DNA of 64,000 nt from Amyloporia xantha (taxonomy: Eukaryota; Basidiomycota; Agaricomycetes; Polyporales; Adustoporiaceae). The stretch lies in the NCBI GenBank assembly GCA_036971615.1, contig JAYKKR010000012.1:1-64000 (forward strand), in the 5' to 3' direction. Shown here piece after piece: positions 6,013 through 55,619 of this stretch. The translations under genes were made by a program, and so were the position numbers. The notes under the pieces were generated by a model. That model did no database searches, was not told the DNA's origin, and saw only the letters and a program-made list of their open reading frames with translations. Position 1 is the first letter of the stretch. Each line of letters opens with the position of its first letter.

Positions 6013-6096
6013 ATAATAATGTATCACGCTGGTTTTATTCCCGAAGTAAGAGTTTACATTGGCACTGTGTCATCCCCTAGCGGCCCAATTTATACT

Positions 6097-16906: not shown

Positions 16907-17400
16907 CCAGCAAGCAATTTTGGGAGGACAGGGGCAGCCAGAGGGCAATTGTCGCCGAGGAAAATGTCACATTGCGCGAGCCTGCCAGACAGAGGACAGC
17001 AGCACCTCGGCCGAGGCAGGGAGACAGGGAAGAATTGTCGCGGAAAAACAGAGCACATCGCGCGAGTCTACAAGGCAGGGAGCAGCTCAGCCTCGGCCGA
17101 GCCAGGGAGACAGGGAGGAATTGTCGCGGAAAAACAGAGCACATCGCGCGAGGCTACGGGACAGGGAACAGCAGTGCATCGGCCAAGCTAGGGAGACAGG
17201 GAAGAATTGTCGCGGAAAAACAGAGTACATCGCGCAAGGCTACAGGACAGGGAACAGCAGTGCATCGGCCGAGCCAGGAAGACAGGGAAGAATTGTCGCG
17301 GACAAGCAGAGTATATCGCGCGAGCCTGTAAGCCTATATAGTGGTGAGAGCAACCGGCCGAGCCTGAATCTCAAGGCCCTGCTGCAGCGTCGGCCGACGT
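16907..17400 (+). repeat. Right subterminal array of element A, 86-bp period
   Basis: Tandem units share GACAGGGAAGAATTGTCGCG, then CAGAGCACATCGCGCGAG, then a TCGGCC(G/A)A word. These words start at 17007, 17093, 17179 and 17265, each exactly 86 bp apart. A variant CCGGCCGA follows at 17354 and a perfect TCGGCCGA at 17390. Such arrays near transposon ends commonly bind the transposase; that role is inferred here. An inverse copy occupies 18460-18953. Confidence 0.85.
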
Positions 17401-17436
17401 CCGGCGTCCCTTGGGTCAGGGCACATTGTCAACCAT

Positions 17437-17476
17437 ATATATCCTATGAGTCAGGTGAATATGACTGAACGGGCTC
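17437..17476 (+). repeat. Right terminus of KDZ element A
   Basis: Read inward, the tip begins GAGCCCGTTCAGTCATATTC. The right tip of element B begins GAGCCCATTCAGTCATTATA. The match over the outer 15 bases, and the abrupt change into a gag coding frame at 17477, define the end. Confidence 0.8.
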
Positions 17477-18383
17477 CAACCGTAGCTCGCACACCCTGGC
17501 GCGGAGTGTAAGGTTTGTCCTTGCAGGACGGGCAGTCCTTCCGACGATACCCCAGCTTCCCGCAACCGTAACAGGAGCCGTTGAACTTTCCATCACCAAC
17601 AGCCGCGATAGTAGAAGACGAAGCGGCGGTCTGTTGGCGACCCTGTGACGTACGAGCCCCACCGCGAGCGAACATATTGAGATCCGGACGGCGCGCGCGG
17701 CTTATGTCGAGGATCTGTTCTACTGCGAGGACTCGTTTTTCTGCGCTAACCCAGTCGTCGAAGGGTTCGAGCTCGATTTTGCGGTAGATGCGCGAGGGGA
17801 TACCGCTGAGGTACTTGTCACGGAGTTCCAGCTTTCCGTAGCCGGAACGGTCCGCCGGACCCTTGAATTGAGCGGAGAATTGTGCGGCAGTCCTCGAGTC
17901 GCGCAAATTGCGAGCACAGACTTTGGTCAGCTCGACTTGTGCAGCGGCTGTGTCGTCGAGATTACCGAAGCGAGCGGTGAAGGCGTCAGTGAAGGCTTTG
18001 CGCGTGGCGAAAGGAGTTCGGCCAGCTACGTAGTCCGCCAGGAAAGGAGTGCCCCATTCGCGGGCTTTTCCGTCGAGAAGGCTGATCGCGACCTGGACCT
18101 GTAGCTTGACGGTGGCTAGGTCCGTATTGTAGTCGAGATACTCCGAGAGTTGGGCGAGGTACCGTTGACATTCCACAACGCTTTCGCCATCGTAGCGTTG
18201 GGGAAGGAGAAGCTTCGCAATACCTTTGTCTACGGCCATTACCGTTGCGGGGGAGGTCGTAGTTTGCTGCGCGGGCGGAGGCGGTGGTTGTTGCTGTGAA
18301 GCGGTCGTGTGACGCGGGGTAGGACGGGTGGTTTGACGGCCGCGCGGCGCCGACGACGGGGCGGAGGTGACGGGCTGAGATAC
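17477..18383 (-). pseudogene. Fragment of a retrotransposon gag gene between two KDZ ends
   Basis: An open minus-strand frame runs through the whole 907-bp segment. It contains the capsid-like block LAQLSEYLDYNTDLATVKLQ, DGKAREWGTPFL, FGNLDDTAAAQVELTKV and LRDKYLSGIPSRIYRKIELE, then a zinc knuckle CYGCGKLGYRRKDC, in which the usual His is Tyr. Upstream of the ATG at 18239 the frame stays open through a Pro/Gln-rich region to the KDZ end at 18384. Downstream it runs into the other KDZ end at 17476. The gene is therefore truncated at both sides. It resembles Ty3/Gypsy-type gag genes of basidiomycetes. The rest of the retroelement is not next to it. Confidence 0.75.
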
Positions 18384-19446
18384 GAGCCCGTTCAGTCATA
18401 TTCACCTGACTCATAGGATATATATGGTTGACAATGTGCCCTGACCCAAGGGACGCCGGACGTCGGCCGACGCTGCAGCAGGGCCTTGAGATTCAGGCTC
18501 GGCCGGTTGCTCTCACCACTATATAGGCTTACAGGCTCGCGCGATATACTCTGCTTGTCCGCGACAATTCTTCCCTGTCTTCCTGGCTCGGCCGATGCAC
18601 TGCTGTTCCCTGTCCTGTAGCCTTGCGCGATGTACTCTGTTTTTCCGCGACAATTCTTCCCTGTCTCCCTAGCTTGGCCGATGCACTGCTGTTCCCTGTC
18701 CCGTAGCCTCGCGCGATGTGCTCTGTTTTTCCGCGACAATTCCTCCCTGTCTCCCTGGCTCGGCCGAGGCTGAGCTGCTCCCTGCCTTGTAGACTCGCGC
18801 GATGTGCTCTGTTTTTCCGCGACAATTCTTCCCTGTCTCCCTGCCTCGGCCGAGGTGCTGCTGTCCTCTGTCTGGCAGGCTCGCGCAATGTGACATTTTC
18901 CTCGGCGACAATTGCCCTCTGGCTGCCCCTGTCCTCCCAAAATTGCTTGCTGGCGGACAGCTTCACACTGTGGGGACTATCAAATTGCAAGTGAGTCTTG
19001 CCCCTGTTTTACTCATGTATATGCCATCATCTGCCTGCACCGCGAACAATTAATTGCCAATACTCGCGGCTCTCGCGCAAAACAATGGTGAAGATCGCGA
19101 CTGGCAGAGTTCACCATAGAGAGCTCGCGAGAGCATATTCTCCCCGGGAATACAACCCATACCAAACCGCTGCCAGTTCATCAAGCGGCTCGCAACCATA
19201 AGCACCATTAAACATCAATGGATAAACAGTGCAAGAGGGCCACCGCGAGTTTAGGAAAGTCCATCGCGGGTCGCAGCGCGCGAGCACGACAACTCCACTC
19301 AGGCTGTCGCGACCATGGCCACTTGTAGCGAAAGGCCCCGTTATGTGTATACTGCCGAAGTGATTCATTTCATAACTCAAACTAGGGTACATACCAAGAA
19401 TACAGGAGCTGAACTTCATGGTAAGTTTGCAGGAAAAAGTACATGG

Positions 19447-20732
19447 CTAAAGTCGTGTCTGCTCGGGAGGACCGTCCTCGTGCTCGTCCCAGGACGGAGA
19501 CCCATGCACCCACAACTTCGTCTCCACCTTGGAGATCCTACTTTTTATGGTTGTTGTGCTCAGGTGCTGCCGAATTCCCCGCTCCAACAAGAGGATGTCG
19601 TTGAGCGCGTCGATGTCATGGTCGACCGCGATCAATTGGTCGCGAGCGTGTCGCCACATGTCGCGGAGATATGTGGCCTCGGTCGCGATAGGAAATCCTA
19701 TGCTGGATGAATGGTTGAATCAAAAACATGAAACATTTGCCTACCATTGCTAATTTTATCCTTGATATGCGCGTAGCGCGCGGTGAGAGAAGTAGGTGGC
19801 AAAGGTGCTACTTCCCCCAGATGACCTGCCGCGACATCATCGTGGCGCGGAGCATCATGGATGTCAGGGGCAGAATCTGTATTTCTCGTCTTGACTTGAG
19901 GAGCAATTCCGGAATGGCCTTCGTCCACAATGTGTTCAATTGTGCTGTGGGTATTGAAGTTTTCGTGACGCTCCCCACCCTGCCTCTTGGTTCTGGCCTC
20001 AGCGCTGATGCGGGCGACTACTTGAGGTTCTTCATCAAAGTCATCACTAAGATCGTCAAGAAGGATGGGCGACCGTTCGCGACTGCGCTCTGTTCCTGTA
20101 TATCAGAGGTTCGCCCTACGGTATTATATCAATTGGAACACACTTGCCTTCACTCCCATGGCGTTCCATATCCTCCATAGCCTCCCTCAACACGCTTTTT
20201 AGGCCGACAGGTGAGCGGTCACGGTAGAGTGCTACAATCAATATCAGTTCGATCCAAAAGGGGAACTTCCTCACACACTCTGATGGACAATATTGTTGTG
20301 AGTTGGAACAATTCCCGCGGCCGCGTCGGGCACGTCGAGGTCGCGGTCGAAGTCAAGGTTGCGGAGGTCGCGGTCAAGGTCGAGGTCGCGGAGGTCGAGG
20401 TCGCGGTCGAGGTCGCGGTCGAGGTCGCGGTCGAGGTCGAGGTCGCGGTCGAGGTCGATTGGGGTTCGCGCGCGGTTCAAATCTTCACGCCAATGCTAGA
20501 TAAGTGCCCATTCCATGTGGATATGAGGACATACCTGGATCCAAATCAAATAAATCCAAATCAATCAGGGTGCGTGCGCGGCCATCCGAGTTCTCGTCTC
20601 GGGGCACTGAATCGCGGTCTTCAAGATCGGAATTCGGTCGTATTAACATCAGCCACAAAGTGGAGATCGCGATCACTGTACTCACCTCTAGTCATAAGAG
20701 TTCCGCGGGCCTCAGACATGAGCACGTCGGGG
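19447..20732 (-). pseudogene. Gene X of element A', 3' part (split by element B)
   Basis: Inverse copy of the X gene at 15029-16412. It keeps the C-terminal block LIAVDHDIDALNDILLLERG, the acidic exon and the DLDRD-type repeat. Insertion of element B after position 20732 separates it from its first exon, which is found at 39114-39218. The gene cannot be expressed as a unit unless 18.4 kb is spliced out. Confidence 0.75.
20726..20732 (+). repeat. Target-site duplication of element B, left
   Basis: GTCGGGG lies immediately left of element B and is repeated at 39114-39120. The uninterrupted element A has a single GTCGGGG-type site here (15127-15133 on the other strand), which confirms an insertion. 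An eighth base would match in A but not between the two flanks. Confidence 0.8.
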
Positions 20733-21289
20733 CACACCATACAGTCACCATAGCCTACTCTATAGGGAGAGATATGGGTGAAATTTTTATTACTTAGTAA
20801 GGAGAGCGGACGTCGGCCGACGCCATCGCTATAGCCTGCAGTGCAGGGTCGGCCGAGAGGGTATAATATAGCCTGTAGATACGGCGCGGCCGAGTGCGCT
20901 ATATTTCCGTAGTATATTCTCGCCTTCAAGTAGTGTCGGCCGAGAGGCTATAATATAGCCTTTAGATACGGCGCGGCCGAGTGCGCCATATTTCCGTAGT
21001 ATATTCTCGCCTTCAAGTAGTGTCGGCCGAGGGCTATAATATAGCCTTTAGATACGGCGCGGCCGAGTGCGCCATATTTCCGTAGTATATTCTCGCCTTC
21101 AAGTAGTGTCGGCCGAGAGGGTATAATATAGCCTTTAGATACGGCGCGGCCGAGTGCGCCATATTTCTGCGGTATATTCTCGCCTTCAAGTAGCGTCGGC
21201 CGAGGGCCATAATATAGCCTGTAGATACGGCGCGGCCGAGTGCGCCATATTTCCGTGGTATATTCTCGCCTTCAAGTAGTGTCGGCCGA
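20733..21289 (+). repeat. Left terminal repeat and subterminal array of element B
   Basis: After the terminal stretch comes a TCGGCCGA palindrome at 20813, a second at 20849 (36 bp on), then TCGGCCGA starts at 20936, 21023, 21109, 21196 and 21282, spaced 86-87 bp. The unit also carries GCGCGGCCGAGTGCGC and TATTCTCGCCTTCAAGTAG. The first 18 bases differ from the right tip at six positions. Confidence 0.9.
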
Positions 21290-21491
21290 TGGTGGATGCA
21301 GTGGTATTCATATCGCGCATCATGGCGCGCCGCGCTTATGGGCCTGGTATGCCCACTGGGATGGTATTTTTATGGCGCGGTATCGGCGCCGCCAGGTCAT
21401 GTGTTCGCGTATATTGGTAAAGCAACTCAATATTCTGTGACTACATTTTGTCCTTGATGCCAACGACATCGGAGTATATACTGTATACGAA

Positions 21492-23229
21492 TTATATCTC
21501 GCCATTCCACATCATGGCTTCAACCCCAGTGGTCCCGTCCTGCGGTGGCTTGGCTGTGAGCAAGGATTTGATGGGCTGGTGGAGCTTCAAGATTGCGTTG
21601 GCGACGTCGATGTCCTCTTCTATACGTCGTAACCTCTCGCTCAGGGATTGCGCTTGAAGGAACATCAAGTTTTCTTCGCTTCCGCGAGGAAAACCTTCTA
21701 TTGTTTTCTTTAGCGAATGGAAAATTGTGAGCGCAGAGTCATACCGAATTTAATCTCGATGGCGTTCATGGCGCTATTGGGGGAGTGGCCTCTGCCATCA
21801 TCAAAGTATGGATTCTCCAATTCTTTGCATATTTAAGTATGGTCAAAGGGTGAATTTTGCTGTACTTACTTGAGTCAATGATGTCCTCGTCGTGATCCAG
21901 AATGGGAGCGAGGGCGAAGGTACGAGGGAGATCCTGGCCACGGTCTCTGAGCCGCTGACGGTGTGCCTCCAAGTCCTGGAGTGGTATCAGCATGACGATG
22001 AAGGCGATGGAGGGCTTTCACTTACCAGAGGACCGCGGGGTATGTTGTGCTCGTCCAACACCTCATTTATAATGTCAAGGTACTGTCTATGAGTATTCAA
22101 ACACAAAGGCAAGAGAAAGCGAGGCAAAATACCTGGCGATTGAGTTGGATGAGGCGCTCATCCGCCATGTCAACATCGCCATCTTGGCTATGCGCAAGGT
22201 CGTCATCAAGTGCGCCGTCCATGCCGCCGTCCACGCCGCCGTCCACGCTGACCTGGACAAGAGGGCCATCCACGCTGCCGTCCACGACACCATCCATAGG
22301 CGCGCCTCTATCTTCAATAGTAGAGGAATGGAGTGTCAGTAGCAAATAGGTTTAAAAACATGAGTGTGGACATACCTGGGGATGGAGTGGCCGGGAGATC
22401 CAGCTGATCGCGGAGCTGGAGAACTGGAGACAGCGATGGCGACAAGTCGAGGTGTGCGCGATGAGGGACAGGCGACTCAAAGGTAGGCTGGGCGCTGTGC
22501 ACTCGCTCTGGAGATGCCTCCAGGTCAAGCCGTGGACGGTGCAACGGGATGTTTACCTGCGATGGCGAAAGGTCCAGGGCGGATCTAAAAGGTGAAGTCT
22601 GCATTCGCGATGGCGAGGTGAAATCCAACGGTTGTCTTGATAGCGAGGTATTCGGCGGTGAGGGCGAAATGTTGAGCGATGGACGGAAGAGATCTATATC
22701 ATGGGAAGATGCCGACTGCATTGTGGGCCTACGTAGTTGAGGGGACGTTAATTGGGGGAAGACGAGGTCCACACGTCTTTTTGAAGTAGGCGCGGACGGC
22801 GGTGGCGGCATATCGAGAGGAGTGCTACGTTGTGCAGATCCCCCCTGAACGTTGGCGAAGTCAGGCGTTGGCGACAAAGCAAAGTGAAAGTTTAGTGGCG
22901 GCGGGGATGGCGATGGCGATGCGGCCAAATCGCCAAGCGTACGCGCTGGTGGCAGAGTGCGTGAGGGCGAAGGCGAAGGCGAAGACACCACATCCAGAAT
23001 TGGGCGAGAAACATCCCCTCTGATGGGCGAGGAGTCGAAGTCCAGAGTTGGGCGAGGGACATCCCCTCTGATGGGCGAGGAGTCGAAGTCCAGGGTAGGG
23101 CGACGGGCATCACCTCTGATGGGCGAGGACTCGAAGTCTAGTATTTGGCGGGCTGAGGGGAGTGAGCGCAGGTTGGCGTGAGGATATCTACATGATGTGC
23201 TCACCTAGCTCGTCTGCGTGTTCCGACAT
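21492..23229 (-). CDS. KDZ cassette gene X: Ser/Pro and LDFD-repeat protein (element B)
   Basis: Multi-exon gene divergent from Z. The start ATG is at 23229 (MSEHADEL). The large exon 2 (about 23190-22375) is low-complexity, with three near-perfect LDFDSSPIRGD units (23025-23135) and many Pro/Ser/Leu/Asp motifs. A smaller exon has an Asp/Gly repeat (DGGVDGGMDGALDDDLAHSQ, 22300-22190). Later exons carry EAHRQRLRDRGQDLPRTFAL and ILDHDEDIIDSS near 21900. The last exon has LRRIEEDIDVANAILKLHQP near 21610 and ends with TAA at 21492. The last two blocks align with gene X of element A. Function is unknown; most of the protein is probably disordered. Confidence 0.62.
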
Positions 23230-23466
23230 GGTTTAAAGCAAGGCGGAAGGAATGCGGAAACGTGCCAAGTTCGTCTAGAGGCATCTAATATACCCATGAG
23301 CGCAACACGTGCGGTGCCGATCGAACGGGCGCGGATCTTTCCGCCAGGCGCCCGCCATCAACCAACGCGATGCACCGCGTGGGTCTGACTTCGTCTCTTC
23401 TTCTACCACCACCACCACCGCCATCACCACAGCTGTCAAATCCCATCTCGCTTTGCTTCTAGCACC
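23230..23466. promoter_or_regulatory. Divergent promoter region X/Z (element B)
   Basis: 237 bp between the two start codons. A CCACCACCACCACCGCCATC stretch just before 23467 resembles the pyrimidine-rich leaders common before fungal start codons. No defined promoter element is recognised. Confidence 0.4.
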
Positions 23467-26235
23467 ATGTCCGCCTCCAGCATCAACAGCGACATCATCA
23501 TCGCCGCAGTGCGCCTGGAAGAGGCGCTGAAGTTTCTGCCCGGGAAGCGCGACGCGAAGTACAAGGTGTTTGAGAGCAACTTCTGGGAGGAAGTGGTAAG
23601 TGATTGTAACACAATCAGGGTGAGCACTGTGGCGCTGAGTCTGTATAATGGCGCCTCTAGCAATCGATCTTCGCGAAGATCAAGGCGCTGGGAACACGCC
23701 GCGAGGGATTACAAGTGCCGCCGCTGTTGGTCAGCGCCATGGCGCAATACATGGTGGCGTCGCACAAGAAGCGCGGAGTGGACTTGTCTGCCATCAAGGT
23801 TGACGACCCCGCCATTCAAAGCCATGGCCTCTCCAAATACGTGTGGCATGGCGATTACATTGCCGAAGACCTCGGGGGCAACCTTTGGTGGAAAGGTGAG
23901 TGCACTGCGAAACCCTACGCCACGTCATCACTAACGGCCCAGCAGCGCTGTTGCGCAAGCGTACGAGCGAGGTTGCGCTGGGTGGGGATGGAGTTGCGGG
24001 GCCAAGTGGGGTGACGGAGGAGGCAGAGGCGGGCGGGAGTCGAGGGAAAGTGGCGAAGAAGGGGACGGATGACGACGCAGGGCGGCCTCTAGAAGGTCAA
24101 AGGGAACGACGCCAGCGACGGACGGCGATGAGGGCGTCGTCATCGCTGCACCAGTAACGAAGAAGCCACGGCGCGGAGGGGCTGCAACGACGGCCGGGAA
24201 CTAAGGCGGCATCCAAGGGCGGAGTGAAGACCACCACTGCGAAAGCGGCAGGAGAGGAAACGACGGCCGCCCAGTCTGAGCCGCGGACGAAGACGAAGGC
24301 GGGGCCATCGACGTCGAAGACGAACGAGAAGGCTTCATCGCGCAAGTCTCCTGCGGGAAAGGATGATGACGCCAGGCAGACGCGGTCGAAGGCGAAGGCG
24401 GGATCGTCGACGGGGAAGGGAAAGGGAAAGGCGAAGGCCTCGCCGGCGCCCGAAGATGACGACATGGACGAGGACGCTCAAGGCGAGAGTGAGGAGATGG
24501 AGGAGACGGAGACATTTGTCTCGGTGAGTACGTTTACCAGATGCGCGGCAAGCGACGCTGACTGACATGCCTTCAGGCGATGCCTTGCGGAAATTGCGCC
24601 AAGGCCAAAGCTGAATGCAGGCTTGCTGTCGTGGACGGTCGGCGTTGCATGCGCTGCCTGAAGCGCAAGATAGGCTGCTCGATTGTGCCACACAACCTGA
24701 GCGGCAATCCGATCAGGGGCCCCTACGGTGCAGTCCTGGCAAGCAAGTATCAGGACGTCATCAAGAACAGCCTCGCCGATGGCATCAAGCCTCCTCCACC
24801 GCGCTGGGACGAGGAGAGGAAGGAGTTTGTGGAGGATAGAGGCAAGCGGGGCAAAGCGGCGGCGAAGGGTTCGGAATCGAAGGCGAGCGATGAGATGGAT
24901 GTGGATGAAGAAGAAGGGGAAAAGGACGATGGCAAGGCGGGTAGCGCGGATGTCGATGCGAAGGACGACGCGGAGGTGGACAGCCAGCTGCGGGTGGCGT
25001 CAGCGACTAGCGATGCGGCTGCGTCCCGCCCAATAGCGCCGCTCCCGAAGACGTCGCTCAGCTCGATGAAGGCGTGGGTTGGGAAGCCACCTCCAGCGGT
25101 GGCTAAAGGGAAGGGCAAGGAGCGCGCGGACCGTCCTCTCCAGGAGGCAGAGGCCAGCAGCTCGAGCGATCGCCGGCGCGGCTTGGGCTCAGGCCTGGCG
25201 AGGTAAAATGTAAGTCGGCTTCACTCTTTCTGGACGGCGCGATCAACTGACCAAGTCAATGTGTGGCTGCCAGACCACCATGGCGAGTACCACCACTACG
25301 TAGGATTCTCCAAGGACCCCACCGCCATGGATGAAGGGCGCTACGCGCAGGACCAGGAGCTGTCTCATTTCCAGCCATTTACGGCGTACCTCACTGAGCA
25401 AGGCCACCGACTCGAGAAGAACATCAACATAATGACCGCGTGGCAAGACCGCTTCGGTAGCATGGTGGACAACTTCCAGCAGTCACTGCTCGCCATCAAC
25501 AGGCAGCAGGTCAACATGACCGAGCGCATTGATAACGCCGAGGGGCAGATTGGCGGCCTACTGGCAAGAGTGGAAGGCGCGGAGCAGACTCTGCAAGATG
25601 TGCGCTCTGAGGACTCCGTCGCTCGCATCGCCGCGCTCGAGGAGATGGTCACGGTTCTGCAGGACGATCTGCGCGCAGCCAAGGAGAACATGGCGATGGA
25701 TCGCCTTGGTGCGCAAGTCGCGAACATGGAGGTGCGCGTGGACACGTTGATGGACAACGTTCGCGATGAGAGCGAGAGGACGCGGCAGGCGATGGCGGGC
25801 ATTGAGGCAGGTGAGGCGAGATTACAGGGGCTCATCGCGCAGTTTGAGTCAGTGCGCCGTGACGTCGCTCGCCACAACGACACGGAGGCCGAGACGCTAT
25901 TGGACAAGGCGCATCTGTCGGTGGAGCTCGTGCAGAAGGCGGAACAGGACGCGCAACGACGGCGCAAGGCGAGGGCGATCATGGACAGCGCTCACGAGGG
26001 AGCCACTCCCATTTCGTGGTCTACATCAGAGCGGGGCTCGGTAGGAGATCAATCGGACTTCACGAGTGAAGCTCTGTCGACGCCCGCCGGTGGCTCCACA
26101 CCTTCAATCAGGCGTTTCTCCTTGGAGATCGACGACGACGAGATGGCGAGCGTGGCCGCGGAGGAGCAAGAGCCTGATGCCGCAACATCACCCGTCGCTG
26201 TCGACGACGCCGAGATGCCTCCCGCTTCGCCTTAG
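23467..26235 (+). CDS. KDZ cassette gene Z: Zn2Cys6-like cluster plus coiled coil (element B)
   Basis: Exon 1 (23467-23595) and exon 2 (about 23660-23894, with KYVWHGDYIAEDLGGNLWWK) form a conserved N-terminal region. A Lys/Ala/Ser-rich, then acidic linker follows. Near 24583-24690 lies CGNCAKAKAEC then CMRCLKRKIGC, spaced C-x2-C-x6-C-x9-C-x2-C-x6-C. The block PPPPRWDEERKEFVED matches the AWTVWVKDLG region of element A. The final exon (25261-26235) is a coiled coil of about 220 residues, ending in a Ser/Asp-rich tail and TAG. The linker shows apparent frame changes near 24085 and 24203, so the copy may be damaged or contain unrecognised introns. DNA binding is inferred from the cysteine pattern. 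Confidence 0.68.
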
Positions 26236-26458
26236 ATAATTGTTTTTGTAACTTCGCTGTAATTTCAAACGAATGTATTGTGTACACTCTCCAGCGACCA
26301 GTAAGATTGAGAGTGCGATGACGGCAACGCCCTCGGCATCACAGTGCGCCACGGGGGCTTGCACAGGGAGCGGCACGCCATCGCCATCCTTCGCAGCGCT
26401 GAGTTCAATCATCGCCATTGAATTTAAATGCGAGGTAGTGTACATGAGAAATAGTATT

Positions 26459-29400
26459 CTAACGGCGACCACGCGCTTTAGTGGGTCGGGGCTGAGCTCC
26501 CCTACCTGTCTTGCGCGATGACCTACGAATGGCGGGGGCAGGCTCGCCCTGCTCTTCCTCGCCATCGCTATTAGTCTCCGCCAGAGCTCGCTTTGAGCGA
26601 CCCGACTTTTTTCGCTTTTCACGAGGTTGAGGTGGTTTCTCTGCTTCCTCCTCCTCTTCCTCCTCTTCGCTCACGCGGTGACTTCGCTTTTTCAACTTTT
26701 CCTCCTTAGCTTTCGTCTTCTGACGAGTGTGGGTGGCGACCTTCATGTCGTTAAGAGCACCAGTGATCGAGGACCCGCCGGCCGTTGGCAGTGCCTGAAT
26801 ATTGATCTCCTTCGCCTGCCGAGCTGTATGGCGTGTCTTGCGCTTTGGCACAGGAAGTGAGGGAGAAGGACCACGATTGGCCTCGCCGTCGCTCTCGTCT
26901 TCACTGTCATGATTTTCACGGTCGGAGAAATGAACCTGTAGGCCCCTCATATCTCGAACGGGTGAGAGCTGATTGATCGCAATAGGTGGAGAGGAGGAGA
27001 AATCCATACTCCCGCGGCGGACAGTTGCGTCATTGAGCGCGATGGGGAGGATGGTGGTGCGCGCCCGGCGCCATTGGCGAGGAAGGCGGTGCGCCGTCAA
27101 TTGATGGCGGTCTCTCTTCTAGTTGTGGACGCGGTCTCATACCCAAGGCGCGCTTAGGTATGGATGGAAAGACCGATCTTCCCGTGGTCATTAGCGGCCT
27201 TGCTGGAGGCGGTTTTCCTGTGACTGGAAACGGAAGCGAATGTTTTTGCGTGCCTCGCAGAGGTTCCGGCAACGGCGAGCTGGATTGCTGAGCTACTTGG
27301 CCATTATGCGCGTCTCGCGATCGCCTTATCTTAGGGGATGTGAGGATTGGCGCGGCTTCCCTCGCCAATGCCGCTGGCGGGTCCGGCGTACGACGCTCCT
27401 GTTCCGCCCGCAGGGTTTGCAAATGGCGAGGCTTCGGGCGGAGTGGGGGAGGTGGACCCTTGTTGAGATTCCCAGTGGGCATCATGGGAGGGCGAGGTGA
27501 TGGCTTCCCCTGTCTGGGAGCGTGGGGCGGTGGTGGACCATATTTCAACGCAGGTGGTGGGGCCTCCAAAGGTGTTGGCTGCGCCGCGGCCGCAGTGCTA
27601 CTGCGGGTGACAGAGCTACCTTCCATGGATGGCGCATCGCCTTGCAAAGATTGGGCCTGCTTCACCAGGGCGCACAACGATGATACATGTGGGTCGAGTC
27701 TCTGGGCAATCACGGCGAAGGGTATGGCGCTCTCGCTGACATGGCGTGGAATATCCGAAGGCGGGGCGTCGGGATCCTGGAAGGCGAACTGTGCTGCCGT
27801 CAGATCGCGGCTTATCATGGCGATCACGAGGAGCACTTGTTCGATCATGCCGACGTCCCCTGTCAGCCTGCCGGACTTGTTCAAATAAGGCTTCGAGTCG
27901 AGCCACTTCAGCACTGGATCGAGCCCATTGGCGTGGCGATGAACCATATAGGACAAGTGTCGATGCGGGTTGTGCCAGGTCGCCCAGTCGGCGCCTTCCG
28001 GTGCCCGCTTTGTCGTCTTCAGCCCACTCTATCACTCGCAAGGTAAGCCTTAGTTTACGGAGAAAAATGAAGTTACTACCATCATGCGAGGCAGCGCGTC
28101 CACGATCACGCGAAATTCTGGCGATGGCGATGCCGCCTCCAGCCATTGCTGACGCCGTCTACGTGAAAGCAGCGCCCAATTGGGGGCGGCGCCTTTTGCA
28201 TCTTCGCTGTCATCATCTTCGTCGGAAGTTGACCCGACGTCGATGTCCAGATTGAAAGTCTCGTGCTCGGTGTCGTCGTCCACGGCGCTATCGTCATCGG
28301 TGCTGAGACGTTGCACGCCTTTTCCCTTGCCGCTTTTCACCGCCTTCTTTTTCTTCTTTTTGGGCCCGCCTTGCCTTTAGCGCCTTTGGTTGCTCTCGCC
28401 GCCTCATACACAGCAGGGATTAGCTCCGAATCCTCGTCCCCCTGCTCTTCAGGTATGCCTTGAAGCGGAACGCGCACTGCCCCTTGTTTGCCTCTTGCGC
28501 CGCTCTCCAATGATGCAGGACCGCGATGATGTCCTTCCTGACCATATGCGACGGATCGTCGGGTGGAAGCCGTCTGGCACCATTCCTGCTTCTATAAATT
28601 CAGCCCCACGCACTTTGAGCGCGCGCCAAGGGCACTTCTCTTTGGCGCTTCCTGCAGCCCGTTCTATGGCGCCATCAGCGTCTTTGTGAGCGCCGTGTGG
28701 ATCAAGACTTACGGTAGTGAGTAGACAGAAAGTCTCTGATCATGGATTTCATCACAGGCAGGGATGGCGCATCCTCGCCATCCATTGGCGGTATCAACGG
28801 GAGACCGCCATCGTCGACCAGCAGCTCTCGCCGTGTGCCGCGAGACGTTCCCTCTCCGTTGTCAACGCTCGCCTCGCGATTGCTATCAAATGCCTCTGTG
28901 CTGTACTTGGCCCATTTGACCATCGTATCTGCATGCCAATCGTCCACCTTGGAAAAGGCTTTTCCATTCTCCATCTCATCGTTGAAGTCGTGTCTGTGAA
29001 AAGCGGTCAGAGCGGTGAGAGGCGATACAAATTGCCTGCTCACTCCTGAATGACGACTCTCCCATCAGGAGATTTGTAGCTACTCAACGTAAAGATCCTG
29101 ACACCATGGCGTCGGTATGCCTCTCGAGCGTATTTCCTCAGAAACGGAATGAGCTCCTTGTCCGCTTTCCTGCGTCGCCATCAGCTGCCGTTAACTTAGC
29201 ACAAAGGTCGCGCTCCCACTCACGCCGAAGATCCAGCCTTGACCTCTTTGGCGTCATTGTTGAACGCATCCGCCTTCATCTGGTAGTCCGCCTTTGCGTC
29301 CTCATCCAGTTTGCCCCAATACTCGCTCACTACCTTGGTGTATGCGCCTATCTCCTGGTGGGCCAGACCTCGTCCTCCCGTCCTTTCGTTGGCCACCCTG

Positions 29401-29734
29401 AGCAGCTCTGTTTTGTGCTCCTCTTGATACATATCCCTCGCTGACCTTTTTTCGTTCCAGGGATGGGCACCTGGGGTTCTACGATTCGGTAGTGGTTGCT
29501 GAAATAGGTCCCCAGGGACTATAGAAATGTGTGAATGACGAAGATGACAATGCCATGAACTGTTGGTTTGACCTTTTTCAGGCCATTTTTATCTGTCAGC
29601 TCTGCAAATTGTTCCATGAGGATATTGACAGCCTCATCGACAATGGGTGCCCTCGCAGTGCCTTTCGTGTTGCGCCATCGCTCTATTTGCTCTGGGATCT
29701 TGTCTAGATATGCCTGCAGGATAGCTATTCCCAT
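26459..29734 (-). CDS. KDZ cassette gene H: HMG-box-like, basic protein (element B)
   Basis: Exon 1 (from ATG 29734) encodes DEAVNILMEQFAELTDKNGL, matching exon 1 at 7810. The next exon has the HMG-like segment NEKRSARDMYQEEHKTELLR followed by VVSEYWGKLDEDAKADYQMK (about 29480-29220), here in one frame, unlike element A. Further exons hold DDGGLPLIPPMDGEDAPSLP near 28790, an FRFKAYLKSR block near 28460, Lys-rich and acidic stretches near 28350-28200, and the helical domain LDPVLKWLDSKPYLNKSGRL near 27900. A Pro-rich region and a basic C-terminus (TGRGAQPRPTKARGRR) finish the protein. Start and exon borders are approximate. HMG-box proteins bend DNA; here the role is inferred. Confidence 0.65.
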
Positions 29735-30184
29735 GGCGAGGACAACAAGCAGACCGAGATGCTCTCAGGATGACAGACACTTGGGCACTCCCAACTGAAC
29801 ATTTGCCCAGACGTGTCTCACCTCCGGTGATACTTTCGTCCTGTTCTAACCCCGCTGATCTCTCTTACACTGCAAGCGTCCATGTCGGGGCAGACCCGAC
29901 CGGCATCCCTCCGGCGGAGCGCGGCATCTCACAGGCCGAGGCCCCGGCGTAATGGCGCCGTGGTCGAGAATCGCGGTCCACATGCCAATGACGCGCCTCG
30001 ATCACCGGATCACGCCTTGCCGATCGGCTGGGCCTGATCTTGCCGGCGCTTGCTCAACGATGTGATCGACCAAACAAGTGTGCAAAGCTAATGGACATGC
30101 TGTTGCAGCATGGTCAGTAGATGGCAGATTGAGCAATAATGCGAGATGGGGCGTGTATCTCCATCCATCTCTTGTCTGTAAGCC
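29735..30184. promoter_or_regulatory. Divergent promoter region H/T (element B)
   Basis: 450 bp between the H and T start codons, without a convincing gene. This is the equivalent of 7353-7809 in element A. Confidence 0.35.
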
Positions 30185-31450
30185 ATGATAGCGGGCAGCG
30201 GCTTGGAGCTCAGCGACACATTGGCAGCTTGCATGCGCGATATGTTTCAGTTTTGGCTACACAAGCTTCGGAATGCAGCCGGACAACCGAGAAACCCACA
30301 GCCTCCCACACATATCCGCGCCGATATCGTCGTCGAATGCAGCCAGATCGCGCACCAGCTCGCAAAGGCATATATCAAACCTGGTGTGTACTCTTGGATG
30401 CTGTGGGCATCTACTCATTCTGCGCTGACCGGGAAGTAGTGCGCTTATCCTGGGACATTGACCGCTATTCTGATGCTATAGGCGTGGGCAACACCGGACA
30501 GAACGTGAATCTGGAGGCGCAGCTCAAGACTAAATGGCCGCCTCTCCTCCCAGACACCACCGTGGTTCTAGATGAACCCTGCGTGCTCCTCGACCAGCAC
30601 TCGCGCATCCTAGCATGGGTGCTTCCGGGCGTCCTTCATGTGAATCGCCAGGTGGGCGCATTCATCTTCCGCCATGCACCGCGCTCACTACGCTGTGTCG
30701 GCAGAGAGAGATACAATTGGCGACGGCCCACCTATCAACACAACTGATGCGTAAAGCCCCGGGGGTCAGTTGGCGAAACCATGAAGCATATTTCCGCGAT
30801 CGATCAACCTGCACCACACCTCCGGGGACTGTCAATCTGTCTCCAGGATGGCACGCGCTGGGTCACACGGTACGCTGACGATCCGTTAACTCTGATGACT
30901 GGCGAATGACGGCGCATACATCCAGGGCCCATTGGACCCAATGCTGCCTTCGGCGAGCTTACGCGATAAAGATGGCCAGAGTGGATGGCGATGGTTGACC
31001 GCCATCCGTGAATCAGCCGCCATCCTATCCGCCATGATGTCCATCATGCATCCCGACCTGTATGCTGCGGGACATACATGCATGGAGTCGCTTCTTGGCG
31101 AAGTGGAGTATCCCGCAATAGTAAGCGCTTGGTCTTCGATCTTCAATGGCGTTCAGGTCATCAGCAATCGCGAGACGCCGCTACACCGCGACAAAAACTC
31201 GCGCAAGCAGTGGTTCGACCTTCTCACCACGGTAGGGAGCTACGGCGCATTGGAAATGCAGCTGGATGGTCCAAATATCGCTATAGACTACAAGGCGGGT
31301 AGCGTAGTTGCGCTTTGCGGAAAGCTTCTGCGCCATGGCGTTCAGAGATGCGATGGAGAGCGCATATGCTACGCTTATTTTATGAGGGACTCAGTGCACG
31401 CCGCGATGAATGTCAAGGCACCGCACTGGATGGAGTGGACTTATGGTTGA
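30185..31450 (+). CDS. TET/JBP-like 2-oxoglutarate/Fe(II) dioxygenase (element B)
   Basis: Four exons can be followed. Exon 1 (30185-30385) has MFQFWLHKLRNAAG and ECSQIAHQLAKAYI. Exon 2 (about 30437-30649) has RYSDAIGVGNTGQN and HSRILAWVLPGVL. Exon 3 (about 30705-30869) has LATAHLSTQLMRK and TVNLSPGWHALGHT. Exon 4 (about 30927-31450) has the catalytic domain: NRETPLHRDKNSRKQWFD (His at 31184 and Asp at 31190, iron ligands), KLLRHGV (distal His near 31334) and GERICYAYFMRD (Arg for 2-oxoglutarate). All core residues are present and the frame is open, so an active enzyme is plausible. Family knowledge: these enzymes oxidise 5-methylcytosine in DNA. It converges on the transposase, with only 67 bp between stops. 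Confidence 0.82.
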
Positions 31451-31517
31451 ATACACAGATCTGTATTTGTGTCAAGTCTATGTTTGTGTATCTAGTAGGG
31501 TCGTGAATGGCGAACCA

Positions 31518-34500
31518 TCACACACATGTATTAAAGCGAGAAGCGGCATGCTCCGCCATGCACGTCCACAGCGAGACCTGACGGCGCGCATAGCATACAT
31601 GACCTGGAGGCCCATAGAGGCGGGAGCGCCATAGGTTCGCCTTGTTATGGAAGCTCGCCTGCGTCCACGCCATCTCTGCCGTGACCATGACAAACTCCTC
31701 CGCCCACCTATCCTTACGTGATTTTGCACGGAACCAGTTGACGCGATGCACTGGCGCGCTGCAGTCAGCATTGCGGGCATTGGACGGACCACAAGCGCAC
31801 TCACACTCCGTCAACCAGTTGGACTGCGTTGAATCGCCCTCAATGTCTACGGTCCATATCCAGGACAACTTGTCCTGCCGTGTTCCTCGGATGGAGTTGT
31901 CGAGCAGCGCGGTGATCGCCTTGAGGTCATCATGTTGAATGGCACGGAAGCGCGCTTTGATGGCGTCAGTTGGATTCAGAGCGAGGATGGCGTGGCGGCT
32001 TTGACTGTAAATGCGCACGTTCTCTAGCACCGCCCTCTGCGTGGAGATGACCTCGTCCCAGGACCGGAGCTTTTGGCGCTGGCTCTTTGCATGACGAACC
32101 GCCGTACGAAACAGCACTGACTTGTAACCAATGGCGAGGCGAATCTGATGAAGGGCGTCATTGGCCTGCCCAATGCGCAAACTCAACTCCTCCGAAGCGA
32201 TGTCCTCTAAACCGCTGGCCACGACAACATCGTAGCCAAGCTGCGATGGTAGCGAAATGATGGCGCTCTCAGGCTGGATTCCAGAATCGATCTCACCGGT
32301 GTAAATCTCATCAAGAGGATTGACATCTTCCTCCAGTGCATCCCATTCAGACCCGTCATAAGCCTCTGCGGCGCCATTCCCATCGGGCTCGGCCACAAGT
32401 GGAACATACGAAGCCGCTTTGGACTCGAATGTCACTATACGCTTCTGAAGGCGCTGACGGCGCTCCTCCAGCGCAAGGCGGTCCGCCACCAGCGGATGTC
32501 GGCCCATCTTCCGTTTCAGTTGGCTAATGACCAACCTAAGACCTGTTGTGAGCTTGGCACCCGATGTTCAATGACGCTACCTACTGCAATTCCTGAATCT
32601 TCATGCCCGTGGCTATCCATGCAGCTACGCCCTGATGGCGATGTTGCGATGTTTCCGTTTGCGTTAGTTGAAGTTGGATCTGCATCCGGGTGGGTGCTGC
32701 GCCACATCATTAATCATGGCCGTACCCTATACTGTGCACTCTCACCCTTTCTCATCTGCACGTCAAAGACATCCATCGCGCTGATTTTAGCGTCACGCAT
32801 GGCGAGCGCCTCGCCCTCAGCGGCTCGCCACTCTCCTAGCTGCTCCTCCGTGCTCGATCTCTCAATGAACTCCAACACGTCCCCGCTCTCCATGGCGCCG
32901 GCTTTGGCCTTTCGCCATTTTCTAACAAGGGTGTTCGCTGTTGAAACCACAGTCAATCAACCTCTCCACCAATGTCAAGGTTGGCCCACCCATCCCGGTC
33001 AACTTCTTCCAATTGGAATCATTCATGTGATCGTCAATGACTTCCTTTCTATGTGCTGTGGTCATGCCGCGTGTGCTACCCGAAATGAGATTCAACGGCG
33101 CCCAAAGGGTTTCAATCACTTCGCCATCAATCTGACCAGCACCGGGAATGAAGTTGGGTGAGTAGCGAGGAAAGCATGTGTCTTGATGGCCGTGGACATG
33201 AAACAGGCCTATTCCGCGCCGTATCTCCACGTTCGGCGGCATGTGCAAATACTCACTCTCCCCAAACCGCTTCATGAGATTGATGCCGTATTGACACATG
33301 ATGTCGTACATCACCAGCAGCACCTGGATACCCGCCATGGTGGCGAGCACCTCGCTCAGCGCGTAATCCATGTTCATCTGTCTGATGGCGGGTGTAAGTG
33401 AACAAAGGAAATAGCAAACCACTTACCTCTCGCCTTTCTGGAAATCAACCACCGCATGAGGCATGAAAAACCCATGGCGCGCACAGGCCGCGGCGCCAAT
33501 CCCCGTGGCTTCAAGGTTATGGCGATCTGCATTCGCCTGGTTGACGGCGCGATGATCGTGACAGAAGGATTTCTACATAGGCTATGAGCGTCCAACGGTT
33601 CATCCACTAGGAGTCGATCACGGACCTCTTTATGCTCGATGGCGACAGCGAGATGCTTCTTGTAGGTGTCATCGCCCACCATGAAAGCGTCGCCATCGCT
33701 GAGAATGACGTCGTCCTCTGGGCGACGCATCTTGAGATGCTCCGCGCTAAAGTTGCCGTCCATTACGATGCTCCTCATGTACTTCCATCTGCTATCGCGT
33801 TACACATGCCGCCCCAAAAACGTCTTACATGGCTCACTGTACGGGGTCATCACGCCATCCGGAAGCGAGATTCTCGCCAGGCTTGGGACATGCCGGGCAC
33901 CCCAAAGCGAGGCCACCAGCTGGTATCGCGTTGGAGGCGCCATGACCATATCCATGCCATTTGCGGTATTTGAGGTTTCGCCATTGGCGGGACACCCGCA
34001 GAAGCTCTCTGTAACGGTTCTAGCCCCTTCTCAACGGCGAAAACAGCTTCATGTGCACATAGTGGCTTACCTGCACTGAATGCGGGAACGCGGAGTTTGT
34101 GACACGTCGAAGCTTGCTGTAGTAATTCATCCCCGAGGTTTTGCACTCCTTGTTGGTAAGCAAAAAATCATCCAACACCCGAAATGTGAACGCAGTGCGT
34201 GGCCGCTTGGTGCTCCCAGGATAGAGGCCCATGTCCAATAGTTGCAGGTCTCGAGTGAACCTGTTATCGCAACGACACCACACAACGTCCAGGCTATGCA
34301 TCCCCGTAACATCTACAATGGTCAAAGTGTCAAACGCGTAGTGACTTCGCGGCGCCGTCGAGTCCGCTTTGATTGGCTCTTCATCCTCTTCATTGTCCCC
34401 GGCGTCACTCACGTCGTTGTCTTCGCCATCGCTATCAGCATCCCCATCCAGCGGCGTGATCGGGGACTCCGCATCCACACATGGTTCGCCATCATGCCCG

Positions 34501-35081
34501 AGATGCATCCGCACCCCAACCTCCCGAAGCCACGCCGGTTCGAAGAACCCATCCGCCCACTTCTCCACCCGATGCAGCGGCATGCGGCGATGCGTCAACT
34601 GCAGGCAGTCCTCGCAATACACGGGGCGCCCAAAGCATTCCAAGCAGCGCCAATCGCCATGCGCATCAGCGCATTTGCTGCATCGTCTCTCACCTGGTGG
34701 AGCTTCTAGCTCGATGATGTGGCTTAGATACACATCGCGAAGTGGAAGCCATTCGCGCATAAAGTCGTTCTGCGACTGCCCCGCCTTCGGCGTTGACATT
34801 GAGCGACCCAAATAAGGCGACGGTACTCACCTTGTGCAGACTCTTCATCGGCATCACATCGTCAAACACCACATGCTCCTGCACGGGTTCTGAATATGCG
34901 TCATGAGACGCGGCTTTAGAGGGGATTTTGACGGCGATCTTGATGCGCTTGTCGGCACATGCGCACGCGGTAGCGGTGCTTCCTTGGGAACGTATGTGAC
35001 GGCGCCTCTTGCAGTTCGCCGTTCTTCGCGACGCACGAACACCGCATCGCCACTGACATGTTGCTTCTTCGTGCGGGCCAT
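31518..35081 (-). CDS. KDZ transposase with CxC2 cysteine cluster (element B)
   Basis: Multi-exon transposase read from ATG 35081. The N-terminus begins MARTKKQHVSGDA. Exon 2 (about 34790-34020) holds the CxC2 region (CSKCADAHGDWRCLECFG, then C..C, HRVEKW, and WCRC), an acidic insert and FRVLDDFLLTNKECKTSG. The core follows: WKYMRSIVMDGNF near 33780, a short intron near 33560-33590, then EATGIGAAACARHG near 33490, YDIMCQY near 33310, VHGHQDTCFPRYSPNF near 33180, and DGEVIETLWAPLN near 33110. The helical C-terminal half (SLRIGQANDALHQIRLAIGY) runs to about 31700. The first exon shows a possible frame change before the donor near 34851. The catalytic core has no break that I can see, so this is the likeliest functional transposase in the window. 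Confidence 0.82.
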
Positions 35082-35356
35082 GGTCGTATCACTGCGGACA
35101 GATGACAATTGGCTTATTGTGATCCATGACACCTTCCTTTTCATACTGAATGGCGATCTCTCACGCCCCTGCCTCCTGATCCCTTATCAACAACGGATCA
35201 TATCCACGCGATCACCTTCAGATACTTGGCCGATGCTTATCTCCGACGGATCTTCGCCATGACCTTCCCTCGAGGCGATCACCCGATCCACCATCGACTC
35301 CTCAAATTCGCCTTGCATTTCGCCTTGGTCTACCAACCCATTCACCCCAAGGCGCA
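35082..35356. promoter_or_regulatory. Divergent promoter region K/s (element B)
   Basis: 275 bp between transposase and s start codons. It is strikingly rich in TCGCC/GGCGA words (for example five between 35254 and 35368), which could be binding sites for element-encoded proteins. Confidence 0.4.
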
Positions 35357-36111
35357 ATGGCTCTCGCCTTGAAGAATCGCGAACAGTCCCTCTCCAGCCT
35401 CATCGCTATCAACCGCCGACTGATCTCATACTATGCCTGGCGCTGCGAGCAGGCGCTAGCGACCATCATGTCTGTCGCCGCCGGTAGAGACAAGGTGGCT
35501 GGCTTCGACATCACCTTGGCGCGGTGGGAGATTGGCCTCCGCATGGAAATGGTAAGCTTCGCCTTCCCCAACGTGTCTGCTCTGACGCTCAGCAGGAAGC
35601 CCTTCGCGACTGCCTTGGCCGCCTCGCCCTCGTCGGCGTCACCGACGTCGAGCTCCCCGACGTCGTCCGCAAGATCAGCGACGCCACCGTCTTTGGGGCC
35701 GTCCCACGGATCCACGTCCTCGAGATACAGCCGTTCACGCCGCTCGCCTCGCCGCCATCCTTGCAGCTACAGAAGCTGCGCACAGAAACCGAGCCCGCGT
35801 GGTGGACTTGGCCAGACGACCCTCCCAGTCACCTTCCAGCATGGTGGAAGTATCCACTGCATGACAGAGTAAGTCCCCACCCCGCTCCCACTTTTTCAAC
35901 ACATTCATTCACATAAATTGCATCGATTGCCGCATAGCGTCGCGGCGACACCTATCAAGTCAACTACCGCGATATGAGAGCGGTCAGCCATCGATTGGAT
36001 GACGTCGAACGCCTGGTCACCCGCTTCGCCGAGAGCCGCCATCGCGATGCCGGCGACCTCACAAGGATGTTGGACGCCTTCAAAGAGGTGCTGTTGCCAG
36101 ATGAGGAGTGA
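35357..36111 (+). CDS. KDZ cassette gene s (element B)
   Basis: Three exons: 35357-35551, about 35593-35868, and about 35939-36111 (stop TGA). Exon 1 ends GFDITLARWEIGLRMEM before a GTAAGC donor. Exon 2 carries WWTWPDDPPSHLPAWWKYP, the hallmark seen in the two s copies of element A. Exon 3 is a charged helix (DDVERLVTRFAESRHRDAGD). The predicted product is about 215 residues with no recognised domain, signal peptide or membrane segment. It is divergent from the transposase, as in element A, so co-expression is likely. The frame is intact. Confidence 0.7.
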
Positions 36112-37973
36112 GACCGGGTCTCTTCGCGCCATGTCGTAGGTGTATCTCGCCGTCGTCTGTATGTATTTCTTGTCGCTGCCTTTATGAGCATGAGTGCATG
36201 ACGTCCCCAGCGTCTGCCATTCGTCCAATGGACCTTGTATTTAAGCGGCTGAATCACATTACCATCCAATCATGTGGATGGCGATGCGATTCAGACGCTT
36301 AACTTCGGGGTAGCATTGACGAATGGCCCAGCTTCGAGGACGCCAGCAAATCATGCTCTTTGGACATCGCGCCATGTCAAAGGTGGGTGTTTTCAGGTGG
36401 CGTATGTATCCGTTTCGTCTGCGCGGTGAGTGCATAAATGCATGACGTCCTTCTGCGCCAGCCAATTCTTCAATGGCCTTGGTATTCAAGCAGCTGAATC
36501 GGATGGCCATCCAACAATGGTTGGATGGCGATTCGATTCAGATGCTTTGATCCAGGGTAGCATTGAAGAATCATGCAGGTCGAGAACGCCAGCACATCAC
36601 GCCGGCTGCGCACCATGTGCCTCGCCTGCGCGCGCCATGCACGGCGCCATCGGATGGCGCATATTGCCGCTGAACGAGGCGCCTTCATCTATGACCTTCG
36701 GAGCCACAGGTATGCGGCTCTGAAGAGCATAGATGAAGGCGCCCTGTCTGGCGAGCCATAGCGCCATCTCCCAACAGTGAGCATGAGCGCGCCATGCACG
36801 GCGCCATCGGATGGCGCCCATCGCCGCCGGACAGCGCAACCTCCATCTGTGGCCCTCTGAGCCGCAGGTATGCTGCTCCGAGGAACACAGAGGAAGGCGC
36901 CCTGTCTGGCGAGCGATAGCTCCATCTCCCAACAGCGAGCATCTGCGCGCATGCACTTCGCCATCGGATGGCGCCCGTTTCCGCCGGACAAGGCCCATTT
37001 GACTTATGTCCTTCTGAGCCACAGGTATGCGGCTCGGAGGAACATAAGTCAGGTCTTCCTGTCTGGAGTCTGACTCTCTAACGTGAGTTTCAAATTTATG
37101 GTCTGCATGGATGCGGGATTCATGCATGGCGCTGTTGGATAAAGCCATTAACTCCTTGCTCTCTACGTTCAAACAGTGGAATCGAGTTGCCCTCCGCGCC
37201 ATGAGTACTCCGGATGCAGCTGAATTGTCCATCAGCATCGGGGTACTCTCAAAACGTGGACGGTGATTCGATTCCTCTGGCTGACCCAGGGCAGCAAGGA
37301 TGAAATGGCGCAGTCCAACAGCGCCAGCACATCATAACACCTGCGTGCCATACGCCTCACAATGTGGCAGGCAAGGTACGTGGCGCATGGTTGCATAGCG
37401 CGTCTGGACATGGTGGCGCCATGGTTCCATAGCGCATGCTGCCGCTGGAGATGGCCATTGGATCTGTGTCCCACAGAGGGTCCAGACAGCTGGATCCTTT
37501 GAAGGACACATATCAGATGGCCCAGTCTCTGCGCGTGTCTTGGGTTGGGCGAGAATATGTATTAGATGCTGGTAGGTGGGTAGATCCAGTTCAAATGACC
37601 TTAGCGTACATGAAATATGTATAGCGGTAGAATATAGCGCGATGCTGCCGCTGGAGATGGCCATTGGATCTGTGTCCCACAAAGGGTCCACACAGCTGGA
37701 TCCTTTGAAGGACACATGTAAGATGGCCCTGTCTCTGCGCGTGTCTTGGGTGGGGTGTATGGAGCCGTCGGAAATGGCCAATCAGTCCTTGCGCTTTGAA
37801 TTGTAGTCACACCACTGACCTGACCACACACGAAACGTCGTGATGAATGACAGATTGCAAAGCCTAATGGATGGCGAGGCATTATTATTATTATACATAC
37901 AGCATGAGATTTATTGAAATGCATATAATTAAAGCGTAGAAAAGGAAACAATAGGGCGGAATATACTACTTCA
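36112..37973. repeat. Right internal flank of element B: hairpins and short tandem repeats
   Basis: No supported gene. Two clear hairpins: 36243-36268 with 36275-36300 (22 of 26 paired) and 36488-36515 with 36520-36547 (25 of 28 paired), each starting AAGC.GCTGAATC and each followed by GGGTAGCATTGA. A weaker third copy lies at about 37175-37280. Between 36590 and 37030, blocks with CCATCGGATGGCGCC and GAGCCACAGGTATGCGGCTC repeat at roughly 120-bp spacing. A block of about 110 bp starting ATGCTGCCGCTGGAGATGGC at 37437 is repeated at 37641. Confidence 0.75.
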
Positions 37974-39113
37974 AGGCGAGAATATACCACGATAATATGG
38001 CGCACTCGGCCGCGCCGTGTCTACAGGCTATATTATAGCCCTCGGCCGACACTACTTGAAGGCGAGAATATACTACGGAAATATGGCGCACTCGGCCGCG
38101 CCGTATCTACAGGCTATATTATAGCGCTCGGCCGACACTACTTGAAGGCGAGAATATACTACGGAAATATGGCGCACTCGGCCGCGCCGTATCTACAGGC
38201 TATATTATAGCTCTCGGCCGACACTACTTGCAGGCGAGAATATACCGCAGAAATATGGCGCACTCGGCCGCGCCGTATCTAAAGGCTATATTATACCCTC
38301 TCGGCCGACACTACTTGAAGGCGAGAATATACCGCGGAAATATGGCGCACTCGGCCGCGCCGTATCTAAAGGCTATATTGTAGCCCTCGGCCGACACTAC
38401 TTGAAGGCGAGAATATACTACGGAAATATGGCGCACTCGGCCGCGCCGTATCTACAGGCTATATTATAGCCCTCGGCCGACACTACTTGAAGGCGAGAAT
38501 ATACCGCAGAAATATGGCGCACTCGGCCGCGCCATATCTAAAGGCTATATTATACCCTCTCGGCCGACACTACTTGCAGGCGAGAATATACTATAGAAAT
38601 ATGGCGCACTCGGCCGCGCCGTATCTACAGGCTATATTATAGCCCTCGGCCGACACTACTTGAAGGCGAGAATATACCGCAGAAATATGGCGCACTCGGC
38701 CGCGCCGTATCTACAGGCTATATTATAGCCCTCGGCCGACACTACTTGAAGGCGAGAATATACCGCAGAAATATGGCGCAGTCGGCCGCACCGTGTCTAA
38801 AGGCTATATTATAGCCCTCGGCCGACACTACTTGAAGGCGAGAATATACCACAGAAATATGGTGCAGTCGGCCGCGCTGTGTCTAAAGGCTATATTATAG
38901 CCCTCGGCCGACACTACCTGAAGGCGAGAATATACCAGGGAAATATGGCGCAGTCGGCCGCGCTGTATCTGCAGGCTATATTATAGCCCTCGGCCGACCC
39001 TGCACTGCAGGCTATAGCGATGGCGTCGGCCGACGTCCGCTCTCCTTACTAAGTAATAAAAATTTCACCCATATCTCTCCCTATAGAGTAGGCTATAATG
39101 ACTGAATGGGCTC
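37974..39113 (-). repeat. Right subterminal array and terminus of element B
   Basis: About twelve units of 86-87 bp, inverse to the left array; TCGGCCGA starts at 38042, 38128, 38214, 38301 and 38387 and continues to 38990, then 39026 (36 bp on), exactly 80 bp inside the tip at 39113. The outermost sequence read inward is GAGCCCATTCAGTCATTATA. The array is more than twice as long as the left one. Confidence 0.9.
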
Positions 39114-39120
39114 GTCGGGG
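39114..39120 (+). repeat. Target-site duplication of element B, right
   Basis: GTCGGGG, matching 20726-20732. Sequence to its right resumes the inverse copy of element A at the position where the palindrome arm stopped. Confidence 0.8.
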
Positions 39121-40049: not shown

Positions 40050-40222
40050 TCAATGGGCATGGGTGAGAGCGAGCATGTCGAGCGCGTTGAGGGCGTGGGC
40101 GAGAGCGAGGGCATCGAAGCGACAGCGAGGGCGAAGGTGTCGAGGTGAAGGCGAGGGCGAGGGCGTCGATGCGAGGGTGAGGGTGAGGGCGTCAAAGCGA
40201 GGGCCAGGGCCAGGGCCAGCAC
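40050..40222 (+). repeat. GAGGGCGAGGGCG-type minisatellite
   Basis: Imperfect short units of GAGGGCG, GCGAGGGC and GTCGA. Open frames through it are by-products of the repeat. Confidence 0.75.
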
Positions 40223-55618: not shown

Positions 55619-55619
55619 C

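Follow-up and report, generated by a model that had tools for sequence, protein, structure and literature searches.

The first 64,000 nucleotides of contig JAYKKR010000012.1 from Amyloporia xantha (GenBank assembly GCA_036971615.1), hereafter called the window, were found to contain two lineages of TET/JBP-bearing KDZ transposons, A and B. Their ends carry trains of short palindromes set on a conserved ruler, in which pairs of sites 35–38 bp apart alternate with gaps of 41–54 bp. Judging from the sequence comparisons described below, the train probably acts as an end-recognition array for Z, a six-cysteine protein encoded within the elements. The original prediction had regarded A and B as otherwise unrelated satellites; they are instead the ends of related KDZ transposons, in which a 58-bp stretch at the tip is homologous.

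The palindrome ruler

The window holds 28 copies of the palindrome TCGGCCGA against 1.91 expected, and none of 100 shuffles has as many. The palindrome positions named in the original prediction hold, with two of the A sites (17179, TCGGCCAA; 17354, CCGGCCGA) being one-base variants and the other named A sites being exact. At the left end of B exact copies start at 20813, 20849, 20936, 21023, 21109, 21196 and 21282, and at its right end at 39026, 38990 and 11 further positions inward at 86–87-bp steps. Each B unit has a second palindrome, GCGGCCGA, 36–37 bp in, while in A TCGCGCGA is found at about 35 bp.

If the tip is taken as position 0, CGGCCG is first met at offset 80 in A and at offset 81 in the ends designated B, C, D, E and F, with G having the variant CGCCCG at this place. 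The gaps which follow are 36, 38 and 51 bp in A; 36, 37, 50, 37 and 50 bp in B; 35, 35, 51, 35 and 51 bp in C; 36, 36 and 50 bp in D; 36, 36, 36, 41, 36, 54 and 35 bp in F (counting the variant CGCCCG at 117 and not CGCGCG at 124); and 36, 36, 36, 50, 36 and 54 bp in G, measured from its variant site. A lost site is seen as a summed gap (121 in A, 86 in C). The recurrence at 86–87 bp put forward in the original prediction is present, but the basic ruler is finer: 86 is the sum of 36 and 50 and the 166-bp unit of F is the sum of 36, 54, 35 and 41.

This ruler is followed by five lineages (A, B, C, F and G). In G, at whose ends no tandem array was detected by Tandem Repeats Finder, three of the five gaps between exact sites fall at 35–37 bp, which was matched by 94 of 200,000 random placements; for F, counted as above, the figure is four of six gaps (8 of 200,000). 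Across the genome 986 CGGCCG pairs were found at 35–37 bp (12 in the reversed control), with 95 pairs at the 25 spacings of 10–34 bp (100 in the control). The number of sites per train ranges from 3 to 37 (56 ends), and trains at GAGCCC ends are longer than those at CACACC ends (medians of 15 sites for 27 ends and 12 sites for 29 ends; p 0.009, Mann-Whitney). At the left end of B (20813–21289) and at related ends, a CCT-containing motif appears about 21 bp (two helical turns) past the palindrome start in many 36-bp modules, and sequence resembling it is found close to the tip.

In the 46.8-Mb genome there are 759 cases of two TCGGCCGA copies separated by 78 or 79 bases, against none in the reversed control; for each of the 50 cases listed, an end motif is no more than 1084 bp away. 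The outermost 16-mer, CGGACGTCGGCCGACG, gave 116 + 119 genome matches at no more than one mismatch (control 2 + 4). From 100 listed matches to it a sample of 60 regions was taken, consisting of 28 facing pairs and four others. A perfect 7-bp target-site duplication (TSD) flanks 22 of the 28 pairs, one further pair agrees at six of the seven bases and five have none. The tips are CACACC and GAGCCC in 27 pairs; the elements run from CACACC to GGGCTC with imperfect inverted repeats of ~28 bp. The remaining pair (L011/L012) has CACACC at both tips; it is a 3.2-kb element with 12-base flanks, one being the exact reverse complement of the other. In the paired elements both ends have the train, and its orientation with respect to the tip is the same at each. 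Elements of 4.8–6 kb (L035/36, L039/40, L059/60) have train and TSDs, with no KDZ or Z among the matches listed.

The sequence outside the palindromes was compared between lineages by gapped alignment against 1000 shuffles. The 58-bp tip stretch could be aligned, with 0 (A/B), 8 (A/C), 1 (B/F), 2 (C/F) and 0 (F/G) shuffles scoring as well, and the array filler of A and B barely exceeded shuffled sequence (34 and 48 shuffles scoring as well). The claim that the filler differs completely is therefore nearly correct for the array and fails for the tip, which is a diverged homologue. Together these results indicate that the lineages are diverged relatives in which the sites and their spacing outlasted the rest. 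Within family B, 376 units are near-identical tandem copies. Among these no CpG transitions were seen at the two CpGs of the inner palindrome, with up to 120 at others, and the observed/expected CpG ratio is 1.42–1.53 in the B arrays, 1.02 in the B interior and 0.91 in the A array. CpG decay was considered as a sign of methylation and set aside; the B units are copied from one another, and their variants are subfamily-like.

The Z protein and its linkage to the train

In A and B the Z protein has the cluster CX2CX6CX9CX2CX6C and, after it, a stretch resembling a coiled coil. F and G encode Z as well, and so does C, whose cluster has CX8 as its middle spacer. All six cysteines are invariant across these five lineages, and their spacing fits the rule for Zn2Cys6 (GAL4-type) clusters, CX2CX6CX5–16CX2CX6–8C. 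Of two homologue searches with Z as query, one yielded a single protein and the other two, all of the same source. Within the genome, 107 pieces matched the A protein and 120 the B protein. The full-length A protein was also compared with PDB sequences, and of the five chains retrieved (E 0.054 or worse) none is a zinc-cluster protein.

A train was present in all nine stretches obtained (from ten sought) 2.7–5.4 kb upstream of Z genes, eight of them with a complete tip; in the ninth (L069) the contig breaks off a single base before the tip is reached. Z lies within 6 kb of 24 of 26 F/G-type CACACC ends. On contigs C1–C22, an end was found within 12 kb of 49 of 54 Z loci. The same contigs hold 73 KDZ places, 40 of which have Z within 15 kb, and each of these 40 has an end within 20 kb; an end also accompanies 10 of the 33 places without Z, some of which are possibly cluster neighbours.

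The 17 kb around two Z-less KDZ genes, C30 and C58, hold zero and one TCGGCCGA, respectively, and no regular train. No element ends were found for C30. C58 is a complete 7.6-kb KDZ element (L082:7001-8601, L083:1-5991; KDZ domain E 6.2e-73) with inverted repeats of 339 bp that are 98.5% alike and the 7-bp TSD TCCTGTG. Its single TCGGCCGA is internal, with about 2.1 kb between it and the closer of the two tips, and no CxC2 or Tet_JBP match was detected in the eight of its eleven open frames (at least 130 amino acids) that were scanned. The train therefore belongs to Z-bearing lineages and not to KDZ elements at large. The original prediction had expected its spacing at the ends of other full-length KDZ elements; because of C58 this does not hold for KDZ as a whole, while the Z-bearing lineages do follow the ruler.

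Candidate readers of the train

The recurrence in five lineages, the linkage with Z and the retention of spacing while the filler drifts point to a protein-binding end array with Z as the likely binder. The fixed protein-DNA array of the original prediction is thus consistent with these observations as a predicted Z array, without being general to KDZ elements. Z dimers would fill the palindromes, and the ends so occupied would form a complex for the transposase. It may be guessed further that Z brings TET/JBP to the CpGs of the palindromes. A wider scheme built on this guess is a self-addressed epigenetic system, in which a swapped-half Zn2Cys6-like Z would bind the CpG-bearing end palindromes and bring the element's own TET/JBP (or read oxidised products), and the 36-bp ruler would couple demethylation at specific sequences with the assembly of a transposition complex; this is suggested tentatively and is rather doubtful.

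Several observations weigh against Z as the reader of the train. Zn_clus (PF00172) matches all five Z clusters below its cut-off (best 19.9 vs. 21 bits), and the A and F clusters score better with other families. A cluster profile run against the PDB, with hits accepted to E 10, gave only LAC9 and LEU3, at E 1.7 and 6.8, which is not significant, and an AlphaFold model of the cluster from four sequences had a predicted local distance difference test score of 53.8 and was unusable. In the LAC9 and LEU3 alignments of Z (A1 12130–13464 and B 24580–24714) the second half of Z pairs with the first half of the known cluster, and vice versa, which hints weakly that Z has a Zn2Cys6-like cluster with swapped halves. 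Common descent alone could account for the linkage of Z with the ends. Most filler columns in B are conserved as strongly as the palindromes, so that constraint is visible only between lineages, which share ancestry. Individual trains also deviate: in lineage C the spacing is retained with inner sites (TCGGCCAA and TCGGCCCA) that are non-palindromic, the E end (L062) has a duplicated tip and its second site 80 bp on, and in L069, of A type, the two outermost sites are TCGACCGG.

Transposases often recognise subterminal repeats, and the KDZ transposase could do so here through CxC2, leaving Z for another task (e.g., bridging or regulation). Both A and B contain CxC2, and the Z-less, train-less C58 gave no CxC2 match in its scanned frames. 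However, it is the Z cluster that weakly resembles a CGG-reading fold and nothing was found which ties CxC2 to CGG, and this alternative is considered unlikely.

Less probable still is a host-side function, with the trains being promoters, nucleosome-phasing DNA or sites for a host Zn2Cys6 regulator. TATA-like stretches are found in the B and C units, and a length near the nucleosome repeat is reached by a pair of 86-bp units (172 bp) or by a single 166-bp unit. In addition, TCGGCCGA (e.g., 20813–20820) is the core of the fission-yeast meiotic hotspot motif 4156, WNTCGGCCGA, in a report (PMC3534124) whose available text also describes that hotspot as unchanged by rds1 knockout in budding yeast. 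A host role is hard to reconcile with a train that lies at both ends in the same tip-relative orientation and is retained on short elements, and a promoter would leave the 36-bp ruler and the 80-bp tip offset unexplained.

Passive minisatellite growth, in which a chance palindrome was tandemly duplicated and its spacing inherited with the unit, would suit the near-identical B units and the variable train lengths, but it is disfavoured and quite improbable, as A and B share sites and spacing with filler that is close to random similarity, G keeps the spacing with no detectable tandem array, and gaps between pairs vary over 41–54 bp while those within pairs stay at 35–38 bp.

Elements in the window and related systems

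The features of the window are given in the table. B (tips CACACC on the left and GAGCCC on the right, read inward) is nested in a copy of A, and the sister copy of A holds the uninterrupted empty site. A stop at 25204–25206 in the Z frame of B probably falls inside an intron. In copy A1 the KDZ match (PF18758) has an E-value of 3.6e-20 and the A Tet_JBP match one of 9.5e-14. The left end of A1 was not found in the window and presumably lies before the contig start. The tips of A1 (17476) and A2 (18384) face each other across 907 bp containing a gag-like frame (Retrotrans_gag E 0.0083, below cut-off). A2 could be traced to 55619, interrupted by B and by inserts at about 39705–46654 and 47285–50688. 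A large inverted duplication was considered for this arrangement and dropped, two facing copies of transposon A being simpler. Positions 41024–42496 and 55617–57097 are inverted copies of another repeat.

Table 1. Transposon features located in the 64-kb window.
Feature	Position	Strand	Details
KDZ transposon B, 18.4 kb	20733..39113		Tips and TSD (7 bp) seen in the sequence; A1 holds the empty site
B TSD, left copy	20726..20732		GTCGGGG
B TSD, right copy	39114..39120		GTCGGGG
B left palindrome train	20813..21289	+	12 CGGCCG sites; gaps 36,37,50,37,50,36,50,37,50,36,50
B right palindrome train	38007..39033	-	Gaps from tip 36,36,50,36,50...
B Z protein	24580..26235	+	Six-cysteine cluster CX2CX6CX9CX2CX6C, then coiled coil
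B TET/JBP dioxygenase exon	30899..31450	+	Pfam PF12851, E 1.6e-16
B KDZ transposase exon	32922..33422	-	Pfam PF18758, E 1.6e-31
B CxC2 cysteine cluster	34020..34826	-	Adjoins transposase exons; Pfam PF18803, E 5.3e-27
KDZ transposon A, copy A1	1..17476		Tip GAGCCCGTTCAGTCAT ends at 17476
A1 CxC2 domain	2710..3324
A1 KDZ domain	4267..4497
A1 TET domain	6097..6504
A1 Z protein	12130..13464	-	444-amino-acid open frame; six-cysteine cluster and coiled coil
A1 palindrome train	16968..17397	-	86-bp units with TCGGCCGA and TCGCGCGA
Copy A2, end portion to B insertion	18384..20732		Mirrors 15127-17476, 99.8% identical
A2 palindrome train	18463..18891	+

In CACTA/Spm elements an accessory protein, TnpA, is combined with many short sites in both subterminal regions, as is the case here, with the transposase superfamily and TSD length being different; we know of no regular 36-bp ruler in that system. 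Zn2Cys6 proteins read CGG triplets, with half-sites arranged as palindromes and the proteins dimerising through coiled coils. The regulators LAC9, LEU3 and Rds1 have two CX2CX6C halves, as does Z, whose halves align swapped in the weak LAC9 and LEU3 matches. Yeast Rds1 has been reported to bind CGGCCG (PMC3534124). The anti-silencing protein VANC of Arabidopsis VANDAL elements offers a similar case, being an element-encoded DNA-binding protein that, in the text available, recognises short motifs in the element's own noncoding tandem repeats (PMC10398659). VANC motifs are described there as varying by family, whereas here palindrome and spacing are kept in most lineages while the filler diverges, and a TET/JBP enzyme is carried.

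TET+ Kyakuja (KDZ) elements, reported from Agaricomycetes, likewise combine a KDZ transposase with a TET/JBP gene and a 7-bp TSD (Kojima, 2025; PMC12730594). In the portion of that paper available their termini are given as CA..TG without terminal inverted repeats (TIRs), in contrast to CACACC/GAGCCC with short imperfect inverted repeats here. The Kyakuja label is not claimed for A and B, which are assigned to KDZ by the transposase domain and by defined ends with 7-bp TSDs. The available main text of the same paper makes no mention of subterminal, satellite, spacing or zinc features, and it describes oxidised methylcytosine as abundant around Kyakuja elements in Coprinopsis; in two mushrooms, TIR elements were also reported, in the text available, to show enrichment for 5-hydroxymethylcytosine and 5-formylcytosine (PMC8889193). 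Such data would suit the guess that Z brings TET to the ends, without showing it.

No description of subterminal palindrome arrays in KDZ elements was found in the literature searched (supplements were outside its scope), in which little was found on KDZ transposon ends and their partner proteins. Subterminal repeats bound by element-encoded proteins are already known from CACTA and VANDAL. A conserved ruler with a linked candidate binder allows a concrete and cheap binding test, for which the elements of 4.8–6 kb provide a short substrate.
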